Part shown: one piece after another, positions 13,781 to 60,402 of the stretch
How the letters are laid out: each line of letters opens with the position of its first letter
How positions within the stretch are numbered: the stretch's first letter is position 1
Origin: Mesorhizobium prunaredense
Lineage (GTDB): Bacteria; Pseudomonadota; Alphaproteobacteria; Rhizobiales; Rhizobiaceae
Length of the DNA: 64,000 bases
Direction of reading: 5' to 3'
NCBI RefSeq assembly: GCF_900156895.1
Contig: NZ_FTPD01000045.1
Location: 318,997 to 382,996, forward strand
Position numbers and translations under genes: made by a program
The notes under the pieces: model-generated
Database searches by the model: none
What the model was told of the DNA's origin: nothing
What the model saw: only the letters and a program-made list of their open reading frames with translations

Positions 13781-13990
13781 TTAGAGCGACGTTCGTCCAT
13801 TTGGACGCACAAAGTACGCTGTAGAGCCGTTCGTAGAACGGCTCTCCCTCTTTGTTTCAACGCAATTCCGCAAGGGAAAGCGCTACGCGCTTTTCCCGGG
13901 AAAACCGTTTCACACTTTTCCTGGAATTGCTCTGACACTTTCAATCTAGGCATCGTGCTTTCCGAAAATCGATTCCGATTTTCGGGCCGA
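13781..13990. repeat. Composite dispersed repeat, families R1 and R2
   Basis: An R1 copy (GCGACGTTCGTCC..GGACGCACAAAGTACGCTGTAG, about 13784-13824), a short hairpin GAGCCGTTC/GAACGGCTC at 13824-13842, and an R2 copy with CCGAAAATC..GATTTTCGG arms at 13962-13985 occur in the same order and orientation as at 21531-21630. The R2 part overlaps the last codons of the SURF1 gene (end 13946). Confidence 0.7.
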
Positions 13991-14743
13991 TGCGTCTTTC
14001 GCCGGGCGGCGAAGCCTGAAGATGAGGACGCCGGCAAGGGCAGCGGCAAGGCCGTACCAGGTTACGGCATATTGCAAATGGCTGTTCGGCAGGTCGATGA
14101 TTGTAACGCCGCCGACCGGCAGCCCACCCGGGTTCGGCGTGGCGTCCGCGTCGATAAAGAATGGCATCAGCCCCGCGCCGGCCGGCAGACCGGCGCTGGC
14201 CGCCATGGCGTCGCGATCCTTCCAGTAGAAGATGTTTTTCTGCGGATCATTGTCGGGAAGCATCATCGAGGGCTTTGCCGGCAGCGGATTGCGGGCGAGC
14301 CCCGTCACCGTCACCTGGCCCGCACCCTGGCTTTGCGGACGCTTGGCCGCGTCCTTGAGATCGTACGGCACGAAGCCGCGATTGATCAGAACGAAGCAGC
14401 CGTCCTCCAGATGCAAGGGCGTGAAGATATCGAAACCGGACTGGCCTTCCCAGGTCGCGAAGAAATGTCGCTCGCCTTGATGCAGGAACGTGCCTGATGC
14501 CGTCACCGGCGTGTAATCCACATCGCCGCTGGCGGCAAACCGCTTTTCGACCTCGGCGAACGGCACGGGCGCTGAGTGCGTGCGCCGGTCGATGGTCTGG
14601 AGAAGGCCCTCTTTCCAGTACAGGCGCTGGACCTGCCAGGTGCCGAGCGCCAGCAGGATGAAGAACAGCATGAGGCCAAGCCCAAGCAGCAATGCCGTCT
14701 TCGGCCGCGAACGGCCTGCAATCGAAGCGGATGTCGTGCTCAT
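13946..14743 (-). CDS. SURF1 family cytochrome oxidase assembly protein
   Basis: A 265-residue protein with two membrane segments (about 20-40 and 225-245) flanking a periplasmic domain, and the SURF1 blocks LGTWQVQRLYWKEGLL, VLINRGFVP and DLPNSHLQYAVTWYGLA. It helps haem a insertion into subunit I. ATG 14743 overlaps the DUF983 stop as ATGA. The last residues (RKSESIFGKHDA) are encoded by an R2 dispersed repeat, so the native C-terminus has been replaced or extended. Confidence 0.93.
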   Translation of the reverse strand: MSTTSASIAGRSRPKTALLLGLGLMLFFILLALGTWQVQRLYWKEGLLQTIDRRTHSAPVPFAEVEKRFAASGDVDYTPVTASGTFLHQGERHFFATWEGQSGFDIFTPLHLEDGCFVLINRGFVPYDLKDAAKRPQSQGAGQVTVTGLARNPLPAKPSMMLPDNDPQKNIFYWKDRDAMAASAGLPAGAGLMPFFIDADATPNPGGLPVGGVTIIDLPNSHLQYAVTWYGLAAALAGVLIFRLRRPAKDASARKSESIFGKHDA

Positions 14744-21530: not shown

Positions 21531-21630
21531 CTACAGCGCCGCGCGTCCAAGGACGCGCAAAGGACGCTGTAGCGCTTTGATTTTGCGCATGATCCTTTCC
21601 GAAAATCGATTCCCATTTTCGGGGTCATGC
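21531..21630. repeat. Composite dispersed repeat, families R1 and R2 (best copy)
   Basis: R1 at 21531-21572 has outer arms CTACAGCG/CGCTGTAG and an inner hairpin GCGCGTCC-AA-GGACGCGC. R2 at 21587-21630 has outer GCATGA/TCATGC ends and CCGAAAATCGATT..TTTTCGG inside. It lies between the IalB-like gene and tldD. Related copies are at 10596, 13781, 38162 and (R2-like only) 60362. Confidence 0.8.
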
Positions 21631-38161: not shown

Positions 38162-38257
38162 ATGACCCCGAAAACCGGAGCGATTTTCGGGAAGGATCAT
38201 GCGCAAAATCAAAAGTGCCACAGCGTCGTTTCTGCGTCAGGACGCGCGGCGCTGTAG
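38162..38257. repeat. Composite dispersed repeat, families R2 and R1 (inverted)
   Basis: R2 (ATGACCCCGAAAA..ATTTTCGGGAAGGATCAT pattern, 38162-38201) followed by an R1 copy with CACAGCG..GGACGCGCGGCGCTGTAG (38219-38257). The order is reversed against 21531-21630, so the unit is inverted here. It lies upstream of aroC. Confidence 0.75.
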
Positions 38258-56382: not shown

Positions 56383-58830
56383 TCAGCCGGCGATTTTCGA
56401 GAAATCCGCGACCTGGTCGGTCGCTGCCCGGATGCGCGCCAGCAACGCCAGGCGGTTGGCGCGCACGGCCTGGTCCTCATCATTCACAAGAACGCGTTCG
56501 AAGAATGAATCAACCGGTTCACGCAACGCGCTAAGCGCCAGCATGGCGGCGGAAAAGTCTTCGTTGTGAATCGCTTGGCCGGCTTCCTTCTCGGCCTGAT
56601 TCACTGCGGCAAACAGCGATTTCTCGGCCTCTTCCCGGAACAGAGCCGGCTCAACACGTTCGGCGATCGTCGTTTTCTTCTTCTCCTCGGCGGCCAGAAT
56701 GTTGGCCGCGCGCTTGGTGCCGGCAAGCAGGTTCCTGCCGTCCTCGGTGTCGAGGAAGGTGCCAAGGGCTAGGACGCGACGAACGATTTGCAGGAGATCG
56801 TCGTTGGACGATTGGCCAATCTCCCCCCTTGAGGGGGAGATGCCCGGCAGGGCAGAGGGGGTCGTCTCGCGTGGGTCGGCGACCCCCTCTGTCGCCTTCG
56901 GCGACATCTCCCCCTCAAGGGGGGAGATCAGGCGCGAGCCCGCTGACAACACCGCGTCAATCAGATCGTGCCGGGCGCCCTGGTCGCGGAGATAGACCTT
57001 CAGGCGGTCGTGGAAGAAGGCGAGGAGATCGGCGCCAAAGGGCCGTCCGGACGCGAGATAGTTCGCCATCTGGCAAGCGCGGTCGAAGAGAGATGTCAGC
57101 GCAAGCCGGACGCGATTCTCGACCAAAATCCTGATCACTCCCAGCGCCGCTCTTCTCAGCGCATAGGGGTCTTTCGACCCCGTCGGCTTTTCGTCGATCG
57201 CCCAAAAGCCGACCAGCATGTCGAGCTTGTCGGCGAGCGCTACGGCCACCGATACCGTATCGGTCGGCACGCGGTCGGACGGGCCCTGCGGTTTGTAGTG
57301 GTCCTCGAGGGCTGCGGCGACCGAGGGATGCTCTCCCTGCAGCAGCGCATATTTGTGGCCCATGGCGCCCTGCAATTCCGGGAACTCGCCGACCACCTCG
57401 GTGGTGAGATCGGCCTTGGCCAGGACTGCGGCACGGCGCGCCAGCGCGGTAATCTCCCCCCTTGAGGGGGAGATGTCGCCGAAGGCGACAGAGGGGGTCG
57501 GCACGTCCTGGCGCGACGCCCTATTATGGACAGAGGATGCCGGCGTTTCACGCGCAACGACCCCCTCTGGCATGCCGGCCATCTCCCCCTCAAGGGGGGA
57601 GATTGCGCTCGCTACGAGCGGCGCCAGTTCTTCGGCCAGCCTCTTGATCCGCTCTACCCGCTCACCTTGCGTGCCGAGCTTGGCGTGGAAGGTGACGCCG
57701 AGATGGTCGAGGCGGGCCATGCGCTGGTCGAGCGGCTTTTTGAGATCGAGCCCGAACTTTTCTGCCGATGCCTGCAACTGGTCGAGATCAGGCAGGTCAT
57801 TCTGGTCGGTCTTCCAGAAATAGAGCGCGTCGGAGAGGCGGGCGCGCACCACCTTGCCATTGCCGTGGGCGATCTCCCTGCCGCCGTCGCTTGCTTCGAT
57901 GTTGGCGGTCAGGACGAAGCGATTGGAAAGCTCCTCACCGGCGCCCTGCGGCCGCGTCACAAAACACTTCTGGTTGGCGCGGATGGTCAGCCGGATCACC
58001 TCGGCCGGAATGGCGAGAAAGTCCTGCTCGAACTCGCCCATCAGCACGACCGGCCATTCGACCAGGCCTGACACTTCCTCAAGCAGCCCCTCGTCCTCGA
58101 CAAGGGCGAGCCCGTTGGCGAAAGCAAGATTCCTGGCGTCGGAAAGGATGATCTGCTTGCGCCGGTCGGCGTCGAGCACGACCTTCGCCGCCTCCAGCTT
58201 GGCGGCATAGTCGTCGAAACGGCGCACGCTGATTGCACCCGGCGCGTGAAAACGATGGCCGTAGGTGATGTTGCCCGAGCGGATGCCGTCGATCTCGAAA
58301 GCGACGACCACCGGCTCCTCGGTCTCCGGGCCGAAGGTGCAGAGGATGGACTGCAGCGGCCGCACCCAGCGCAACGATCCCGGTTTCGCCGAGGCCGGCC
58401 CCCAGCGCATCGATTTCGGCCAAGGAAAGTCGCGGATGATGCCCGGCACCAGTTCGGCGATGATTTCTTCCGCCGCCCGGCCCGGCTTCGCAATATGGGC
58501 GACATAGAAGTCGCCCTTCTTCGGATCGGCGTGGACATGCGCCTCGGCGATCGAGGAAAGACCGGCCTTGCGCAGAAAACCCTGGACCGCCTGTTCGGGC
58601 GCCTTGGTCGAGGGTCCCTTGATCTCCTCGCTTATGTCCTTCGAGCGCGCGGTCACGCCGCGAATGTCGAGCGCCAGCCGGCGCGGCGTCCAATATTCGC
58701 GCGCCGCCTCATAGGTCAGCCCGGCCTCGACCAAACCGTCCGTCATCATCTTCTTCAGGTCGCCCGCCGCCTTGCGCTGCATGCGCGCGGGAATCTCTTC
58801 CGAACGGAGTTCTAAAAGCAGGTCGGGCAT
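56383..58830 (-). CDS. glyS: Glycyl-tRNA synthetase beta subunit with two translated palindromic insertions
   Basis: An 815-residue beta subunit, longer than usual for the family. The start [17 protein letters not shown], the middle block [20 protein letters not shown] and the C-terminal [20 protein letters not shown] are normal. Two stretches are foreign: about residues 410-460 and 635-671, each bounded by ISPLEGEM and ISPSRGEI and encoded by the palindromes at 57452-57603 and 56819-56928. Both keep the frame. The beta subunit binds and edits tRNA together with GlyQ. ATG 58830 is the start. Confidence 0.95.
56818..56928. repeat. Coding palindromic element, copy 2 (in glyS)
   Basis: A 110-bp element with perfect 24-bp inverted ends (56819-56842 and 56905-56928) and a second inner pair AGAGGGGGTCG/CGACCCCCTCT. 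It is translated as residues 635-671 of GlyS. It lies in the opposite orientation to the copy at 57452-57603: its inner SPKATEGV half is first in the protein here and last there. Confidence 0.9.
57451..57604. repeat. Coding palindromic element, copy 1 (in glyS)
   Basis: A 152-bp element with the same perfect 24-bp ends (57452-57475 and 57580-57603; one more base pair fits outside). It is translated as GlyS residues 410-460. The inner part is longer than in copy 2 by a segment encoding about HNRASRQDV. Confidence 0.9.
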
Positions 58831-58895
58831 CAATTGTGCTCACGCGGCAAAATGGTCCAGGCGGCATAGCAACTCGGCTGGCCGCTGTCACCCTT

Positions 58896-59262: not shown

Positions 59263-60291
59263 CTAAGCCGCCAGACCACCCGCCTGCGTCAGCAAAAACG
59301 CCTCGCCGCAGGCTTTCGCCAGATTGCGCACCCGCAAGATGTAGCTCTGCCGCTCGGTGACCGAAATCACGCCGCGCGCGTCGAGCAGGTTGAAGACGTG
59401 GCTGGCCTTGATGCATTGGTCGTAGGCGGGAAATACCAGGCGGTGGTTCGCATCCCCCTTGAGGGGGTGGCCGGACGAAGTCTGGCCGGGAGCGGTCGCT
59501 GGGACCTTACTTGCGGTGCCTTCTGTGGCAACCCCCTCTGCCCGCTCCGCGGGCATCTCCCCCTCGAGGGGGGAGAAAGGCGCGCCGGCAGCGAGCAGCG
59601 CCTTGCACTCGGCTTCGGCGTCCTCGAAGTGCCGAAGCAGCATCGCGGTGTTGGCGAATTCGAAATTGTGCCGCGAATATTCCTGCTCGGCCTGCAGGAA
59701 GACCTCGCCATAGGTCACCTTGTCGGCGCCGTCGCGGCCGTTGAAGTTGAGGTCGTAGACATTGTCGACGCCCTGCACATACATGGCCAGCCGCTCCAGC
59801 CCGTAGGTGAGCTCGCCCGCCACCGGCGCGCATTCGATGCCGCAGACCTGCTGGAAATAGGTGAACTGCGACACTTCCATGCCGTCGCACCAGCACTCCC
59901 AGCCCAGCCCCCAGGCGCCGAGCGTCGGGCTTTCCCAGTCGTCCTCGACGAAGCGGATGTCATGCAGAAGCGGATCGACGCCGATGGCCGCCAGCGAGCC
60001 GAGATAAAGTTCCTGCAGATTAGGCGGGTTCGGCTTCAGGATCACCTGGTACTGGTAATAGTGCTGCAGCCGGTTCGGATTCTCGCCGTAGCGCCCGTCC
60101 TTGGGCCGGCGCGAAGGCTGCACATAGGCCGCGTTCCAGCGCTTTGGCCCCAGCGCGCGCAAGGTCGTCGCCGGGTGGAACGTGCCGGCGCCGACTTCCA
60201 TGTCATAGGGTTGGAGAACGACGCAGCCATAGTCCGCCCAGTAGTTATGCAAGGTCAGGATCAGCCCCTGGAACGAGCGGCTGGGATGCAT
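59263..60291 (-). CDS. glyQ: Glycyl-tRNA synthetase alpha subunit with a translated insertion
   Basis: A 342-residue Gly[61 protein letters not shown] and the C-terminal [17 protein letters not shown] are typical. Between [10 protein letters not shown] and [20 protein letters not shown] about 44 residues (238-281) are foreign, starting FSPLEGEM and ending HPLKGDA. Related proteins have only a few residues here. ATG 60291 is the family start. With GlyS it charges tRNA-Gly; the two genes are separated by 432 bp. Confidence 0.95.
59450..59580. repeat. Coding palindromic element, degenerate copy (in glyQ)
   Basis: About 130 bp with ends CATCCCCCTTGAGGGGGTGG (59451 on) and CATCTCCCCCTCGAGGGGGG (about 59554 on), and an inner ACCCCCTCTGCCCGCTCCGC. 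It is clearly of the same family as the two glyS elements, but the ends no longer match perfectly. It is translated as GlyQ residues 238-281. Confidence 0.85.
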
Positions 60292-60361
60292 ATGGGCTGG
60301 GATATCAACTGTCACGGCGGCCTCGACGGAGCGGCGGAATGCGGCACCTGCTGGATGAGGC

Positions 60362-60402
60362 CGCATGATCTTGTCCGAAAAGTCTGCAACTTTTCGGGAT
60401 CA
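60362..60402. repeat. Dispersed R2-like palindrome between glyQ and the TPR gene
   Basis: TGATC..CCGAAAAGT-CTGC-AACTTTTCGG..GATCA pattern. It lies upstream of glyQ and 40 bp from the TPR gene stop, so it may end that transcript. Confidence 0.65.

Follow-up and report, generated by a model that had tools for sequence, protein, structure and literature searches.

Palindromic mosaic repeats within genes of Mesorhizobium prunaredense are read in a single phase

The palindromic repeats found interrupting protein-coding genes of Mesorhizobium prunaredense share one reading phase. In each of the 13 in-gene insertions found in this genome, every recognisable A-type arm lies in phase 0, defined as the phase in which ATC (or its TTC variant) is read as a codon, where about one third would be expected; the comparison of frame use with chance raised by a first-pass annotation of this DNA thus came out in favour of a preferred frame. 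The most probable explanation, to which we assign a probability of roughly 0.7, is that the elements belong, by description, with the mosaic palindromic REP/RIME repeats of rhizobia, and that copies survive within genes through selection on the peptide encoded in phase 0.

The starting point is a 64,000-nt stretch of the genome (the window), in which glyS carries two copies and the adjoining glyQ a third, decayed one. The features are as follows (here and below, L numbers denote loci and G numbers genomes).

56383 to 58833, minus strand: glyS, glycyl-tRNA synthetase beta subunit, open reading frame with two element copies (Pfam PF02092, E 1.3e-174, plus DALR_1)
57452 to 57603, minus strand: element copy at glyS site 1, 152 nt; A-type copy also in L046, L054 and L064
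57581 to 57603, no strand: site 1 outer hairpin, 5' end on the coding strand
57452 to 57474, no strand: site 1 outer hairpin, 3' end on the coding strand
56819 to 56928, minus strand: element copy at glyS site 2, 110 nt, inverted relative to site 1; A-type copy also in L043, L046, L054 and L064
56906 to 56928, no strand: site 2 outer hairpin, 5' end on the coding strand
56819 to 56841, no strand: site 2 outer hairpin, 3' end on the coding strand
59263 to 60366, minus strand: glyQ, glycyl-tRNA synthetase alpha subunit, open reading frame with the third, decayed copy (Pfam PF02091, E 1.7e-139)
about 59452 to 59577, minus strand: decayed mosaic element in glyQ, in the same frame and ending GHPLKGD (end points estimated from the reading)

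The two inverted glyS copies of 152 and 110 bp described in the first-pass annotation were located at these positions, both lengths are 2 modulo 3 as it had stated, and translation of both agrees with its account of a single arm frame running from ISPLEGEM to ISPSRGEI. Both copies are bounded by the exact 23-nt hairpin ATCTCCCCCNNNNNGGGGGAGAT, and on the coding (minus) strand they start with ATC TCC CCC CTT GAG GGG GAG ATG (ISPLEGEM) and end with ISPSRGEI. The two copies face in opposite directions, as the inner hairpin GTCGCCGAAGGCGAC shows: one has it at its 5' end (SPKATEGV), the other at its 3' end (SVAFGD). A 49-nt perfect inverted arm common to both constitutes their terminal inverted repeats. 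Both orientations are open because this inverted-repeat design makes the two ends identical. With up to 3 mismatches, the hairpin has 5 matches in the window and 0 in 100 shuffles, and by both shuffle and reversed-pattern controls the hairpin matches are beyond chance. In an AlphaFold2 model of GlyS built from 23 sequences, residues 413-452 and 632-674, both between helices, have pLDDT below 50 and coincide with the two inserts, in a model of moderate quality (mean pLDDT 65, pTM 0.54) in which further segments also fall below 50. The closest glyS relative is that of Mesorhizobium sp. LMG 17147 (93% over the N-terminal half), and Mesorhizobium LMG 17147 also has a fuller version of the glyQ element. 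The window holds a second repeat family as well, with the hairpin-like core CCGAAAATCGATTCCGATTTTCGG, present as direct and inverted copies of 75-83% identity at 13929-13993, 21566-21630 and 38166-38213.

An arm consists of an outer hairpin, in which ATCTCCCCC and GGGGGAGAT enclose a loop of 5 nt, an inner hairpin measuring 12 or 15 nt (78 of 80 parsed arms), and a tail, AGAGGGGG, able to pair with CCCCCTCT of the opposite arm. The inner hairpin covaries, with 304 of 312 cells paired compared with a maximum of 271 in 500 shuffles; at one inner pair, the 78 distinct arms include G-C in 33, T-A in 30 and C-G in 11. Arms are joined outward (110-237 nt) or inward (107-111 nt, measured over the two outer hairpins). 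Among outward pairs from six genomes, 50 of 66 are 149-156 nt long, a length class that is over-represented because most pairs from outside the own genome were picked by a search with the 152-nt copy; the outward copies within genes measure 110, 122, 149 and 152 nt. In some copies the second arm is of another type, LPSRGRE or GHPPLKGEG, which makes the element a mosaic, and this second type is read in two phases. The 60 outward copies outside known genes have lengths in all three residues modulo 3 (26, 21 and 13), and element length is therefore not fitted to genes; the survivors within genes look filtered.

The repeat is abundant in the 7.0-Mb genome, where the outer hairpin has 118 matches with up to 2 mismatches (the reversed pattern has 0) and the exact outer hairpin with any G-bearing loop occurs at 144 sites. 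Within the stretches fetched, inspection took in 155 different sites when up to 3 mismatches were allowed, among them 126 of the 144 exact matches, and of the 138 arms parsed there 20 lie in the named genes and 118 outside them. Runs of ten N stand beside or within repeat copies (L003 18719-18913, L005, L009, L014, L027, L030 and L031); since these mark assembly gaps at repeats, the copy counts are a minimum. Two 4-mismatch matches in L014 proved not to be the repeat. Elsewhere, matches occur in 141 plasmid records, mainly of Sinorhizobium and Rhizobium but also of Shinella, Neorhizobium and others, the arm sequence is present on pSymB of S. meliloti 1021, and the exact hairpin plus G is found in 5 of 121 genomes drawn across the order (three of this genus, one of the same family and one other). 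REP/BIME elements are moved by RAYT (Y1_Tnp) transposases. A resident RAYT was rejected as the mover in this genome, where the Y1_Tnp search gave 0 matches and no mobilising enzyme was found; 7 of 61 genomes of the genus do have a Y1_Tnp match.

The in-gene insertions were collected by three phase-blind scans for coding flanks together with a Pfam check of the host open reading frames. They fall in 10 genes: glyS (two), glyQ, uvrB (two), xdhC, a hydantoinase A/B fusion (two), PDH-E2, cobN, cobG, GNAT and an ABC ATPase (L035), the last with its insert within the ABC domain. Three of the copies, both of those in uvrB and the one in GNAT, are close to protein ends and outside Pfam domains, and are probably translated, judging from the open frame; the same GNAT insert is present in G008 (L152) and G012 (L166). 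In genome G012, the phase-blind scans found copies in cobN, glyS, GNAT, ABC and a nitrate-reductase-like gene, and a query with the phase-0 peptide found them in hydantoinase, xdhC, uvrB, uvrD and, twice, a second E2 gene; the uvrD and two E2 copies, which come from the phase-0 query, are outside the 13 counted. Two host genes show further composite structures: cobN (L007 3399-7118) has an A-type inward pair plus an in-frame insert of the second type, PLPLEGRVRPQAGGG...GHPPLEGEGD, both of which recur in G012 (L298), and xdhC of G012 (L211) has one in-frame insert made up of three arms (A, A and B).

A number of candidates were set aside. Spanning open reading frames without a Pfam family were dropped, with their arms in the phases indicated: L001 (0), L003 (0), the plus strand of L031 (0 and 2), L294 (2), L300 (2 and 0), L401 (0), L191 (0), L144 (1), L148 (1), L172 (1), a second L144 frame (2) and L145 (1). 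In a further group of Pfam-supported frames the arm is 5' of the domain and probably precedes the true start, and these remained uncounted (L031 minus strand, L293, L299 and L306, phase 2; L184, phases 1 and 0; L177 and L179, phase 0). The copy at hutG on R. etli plasmids seemed genic, but the repeat overlaps the gene by only 2 nt.

For 13 of 13 insertions to share phase 0, the probability is 6e-7 if each phase has a chance of 1/3, 1e-4 if phase 0 has a chance of 1/2, and 5e-4 if it has a chance of 0.553. The clear exception to the common phase is the nitrate-reductase-like gene of G012 (L316:2-2782), where phase 1 is used by one arm (TPLWPAGHLPLGG) and phase 0 by the other, and phase 0 would be less exclusive if some of the seven uncounted frames start earlier than supposed. 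Stop codons do not account for the pattern. It had been noted at the outset that a frame of the arm containing CCT TGA is closed, and this holds for the CTTGA loop, but other loops are mostly open in that frame. Among 305 arms outside known genes, the 5' arm is open in phase 0 in 304, in phase 2 in 301 and in phase 1 in 211, and the 3' arm in 304, 304 and 299, respectively; because phase 2 is about as open as phase 0 in these non-genic arms, stop codons by themselves would not single out phase 0. The encoded peptides do differ. Cys and Trp are absent from six common phase-0 peptides, whose net charge is -8 per 100 residues, whereas six phase-2 peptides have a net charge of +21 per 100 residues and 4.7% Cys. 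Since phase 2 is open yet codes for a basic, cysteine-containing peptide, the phase is best explained by selection acting on the peptide. When the phase-2 peptide was used as a query against 11 genomes, it gave 7 hits in open frames of at least 300 aa, and the six fetched yielded 0 confirmed genes (five have no coding call, and L300 has no Pfam family); the seventh lies on contig 10 of G012 and has one stop. The phase-0 query, by comparison, matched xdhC, hydantoinase, uvrB, glyQ, uvrD and an E2, and open frames of at least 200 aa contain 17 of its 20 best hits.

Another possibility is that A-B mosaics form a coding-adapted sublineage that resides mainly in genes and seeds further genes by recombination, so that the phase is inherited rather than selected anew each time. 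Several observations lean this way: in this genome a recognisable B partner goes with arms in genes in 3 of 3 cases (hydantoinase, uvrB and xdhC), compared with 8 of 28 for an A partner; among the best 20 hits of the A-B peptide in 11 genomes, 17 are in open frames of at least 200 aa; and the middle part EGVVSEGTARAS is common to the xdhC and hydantoinase copies. The numbers are small, however, several of the A-B loci of G012 were themselves obtained with that peptide, and the 20 hits often repeat one gene across genomes. One A-B-like pair lies outside genes in G012 (L302), and A-A and inward copies within genes keep the same phase, which leaves this explanation of the phase unlikely. A broader form of the idea can be entertained tentatively: a coding-adapted selfish palindrome of Mesorhizobium, with an A-B sublineage mainly in core enzymes, might spread among genes through recombination, always in one phase, and, if so, would supply proteins with ready-made disordered loops.

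A different class of explanation places the frame in the insertion step itself, with a transposase that makes a fixed target duplication, or chooses a codon-phased target, landing copies in phase 0. Empty sites in relatives bear directly on this. An A-type copy occupies site 1 in 3 of the 25 named relatives aligned over glyS (L041-L065), and site 2 in 4 of them. Over the empty sites, the net gain is 153 nt for the 152-nt element at site 1 (+1) and 132 nt for the 110-nt element at site 2 (+22). The first-pass annotation had argued that both copies need the same 1-base (mod 3) addition, as a fixed target duplication would give; both additions are indeed 1 modulo 3, but their sizes differ. In PDH-E2, a copy is present in 4 of the 18 loci that could be compared (30 were fetched, 12 of them without an anchor match), and with the 122-nt copy of this genome the gene exceeds those of 13 insert-free loci by only 27-57 nt, so that the difference between gain and element length is negative. 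Flanking residues are also missing beside the insert in glyQ and xdhC. As the gains vary and flanks are missing, there is no fixed duplication, and host codons were lost at or after insertion. No target site duplication of fixed length was found in glyS or E2, and flanks are lost in E2, glyQ and xdhC, although the insertions compared are common to several species and hence old, and the junctions seen may not be the original ones.

Target choice fares little better. Of the target motifs tried, GATC gives the largest share of phase 0 (0.553), and landing after a host GATC or reusing a host ATC would place 54-55% of events in phase 0; even this share yields only the 5e-4 given above for 13 of 13. 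GCC[AG], the common flank, would favour phase 1 (53%) over phase 0 (23%), and copies outside known genes have no fixed length modulo 3. A frame set by the insertion mechanism is accordingly improbable. The suggestion that selection or a mechanism makes the element safe inside genes can be kept in part: the copies are tolerated in one frame, but not by way of a fixed duplication.

The sites also record what happens after insertion. At glyS site 2, LMG 17147 and SOD10 have a copy of 122 nt that differs in its inner stem and middle from the 110-nt copy of the present genome, and copies there seem to have been replaced or converted in place. In xdhC, G003 has a mutated copy, and G007, G010 and G006 have short remnants, such as FSSPRGRDS and SPRKGED, that look like in-frame scars. 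In M. camelthorni (L054) and an Aquibium (L064), glyS is also occupied at a third site, which follows CFVTR; each of these two genes has three inserts, and the six arms are all in phase 0; a contig of Mesorhizobium STM 4661 (L115) stops at an arm near this site. The loops of the first two glyS sites also house other palindrome-like inserts: Mesorhizobium sp. Root554 (L052) has SPLWGGRAIGAGGGES at site 2 and a Hoeflea MAG (L057) has TSPLRGDQSAVAPP at site 1, so these loops were apparently struck more than once. The E2 linker of G042 (L329) has a different repeat-like insert, SPSDGGGRAADEP...PPHKGEGEG.

It is also conceivable that the hairpins are kept in genes for a function in RNA, such as mRNA stability or translation pausing, with the frame being secondary. 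The predicted folds are very stable, with energies of -106.9 and -90.4 kcal/mol and z scores of -10.6 and -12.6. Most of the relatives compared nevertheless lack a copy at the corresponding sites, the copies decay in frame, and the stems covary too in an arm set that is mostly non-genic, all of which makes an RNA role highly unlikely as the source of the phase. That copies share a frame by chance was a reasonable concern with two copies in a single gene, but with 13 of 13 events over 10 genes of this genome equal phase use is rejected, and the idea has next to no probability left.

Returning to peptide selection in phase 0, the following course of events is the most probable. The two-hairpin arms, paired outward or inward, sit mostly between genes and have entered the loops and linkers of proteins repeatedly. 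An insert would survive there only if as a whole it keeps the host frame, in the phase that gives the polar, cysteine-free peptide ISPLEGEM...ISPSRGEI, and the phase would then be a filter on survivors rather than a property of insertion. After insertion, copies may persist, swap arms with other copies, presumably through recombination, and shrink by whole codons. In our view the elements are mosaic repeats of a selfish or recombining kind. What is observed is where the copies lie, their constant phase, the empty sites, the loss of flanking codons and the differences between species at one site; that selection causes the phase, and how the elements first move, is what we infer from these patterns.

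In-frame palindromes of this kind in core genes of a GC-rich rhizobium would allow both tolerance and phase to be tested in culturable bacteria. For annotators, loops such as ISPLEGEM...ISPSRGEI are to be recognised as repeat-derived. The filled, empty, replaced and decayed states of one site across sister species provide a natural series from DNA repeat to protein sequence.

Several known systems share features with the element. Passages of one paper (PMC2229807) list in-frame MITEs and describe most Correia/NEMIS and ERIC-type MITEs as having TA ends and target duplications. These, too, are short elements with inverted repeats, some of which have open frames fused to genes, but neither TA ends nor target duplications were seen for the Mesorhizobium element. 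It resembles REP/BIME elements in having hairpin units paired outward and inward, and differs from those with a RAYT in that this genome has no Y1_Tnp match. Closer at hand are the RIME, Sm repeats and A/B/C motifs of Sinorhizobium meliloti, described in passages of three papers as multi-copy with conserved secondary structure (PMC2573895, PMC2245857, PMC2780559). By description, the present repeat is like RIME and the S. meliloti mosaic repeats, a multi-copy palindromic mosaic in rhizobia (141 plasmid records, 144 exact hairpins). A passage of the first of these papers names rhizobial mosaic repeats as intergenic (PMC2573895), whereas the Mesorhizobium copies also lie within genes; in the literature searched, which includes few subscription papers, no prior report of the repeat within Mesorhizobium genes was found.

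The closest parallel in kind is with the Rickettsia palindromic elements (RPE), described as palindromes of about 150 bp found in frame in unrelated protein genes with a conserved peptide (Ogata et al., 2000, 2002, as cited in PMC10969869 and PMC2229807). Protein-coding palindromes are termed a unique but recurrent feature of Rickettsia in a title (Ogata, 2002; PMC10969869), and a passage of a 2024 review notes that RPE occur in frame at unusual frequency and that the same is conceivable in other prokaryotes (PMC10969869). The Mesorhizobium arms are unlike RPE in being GC-rich and mosaic, in a rhizobial host with a 7-Mb genome and with copies that are mostly extragenic. They share with RPE a palindromic design of about 100-150 bp (110-152 nt in genes, with strong folds) and in-frame residence in several unrelated genes (13 insertions in 10 genes of this genome). 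By analogy, the Mesorhizobium element appears to work like an RPE in kind, a likeness drawn from these features.
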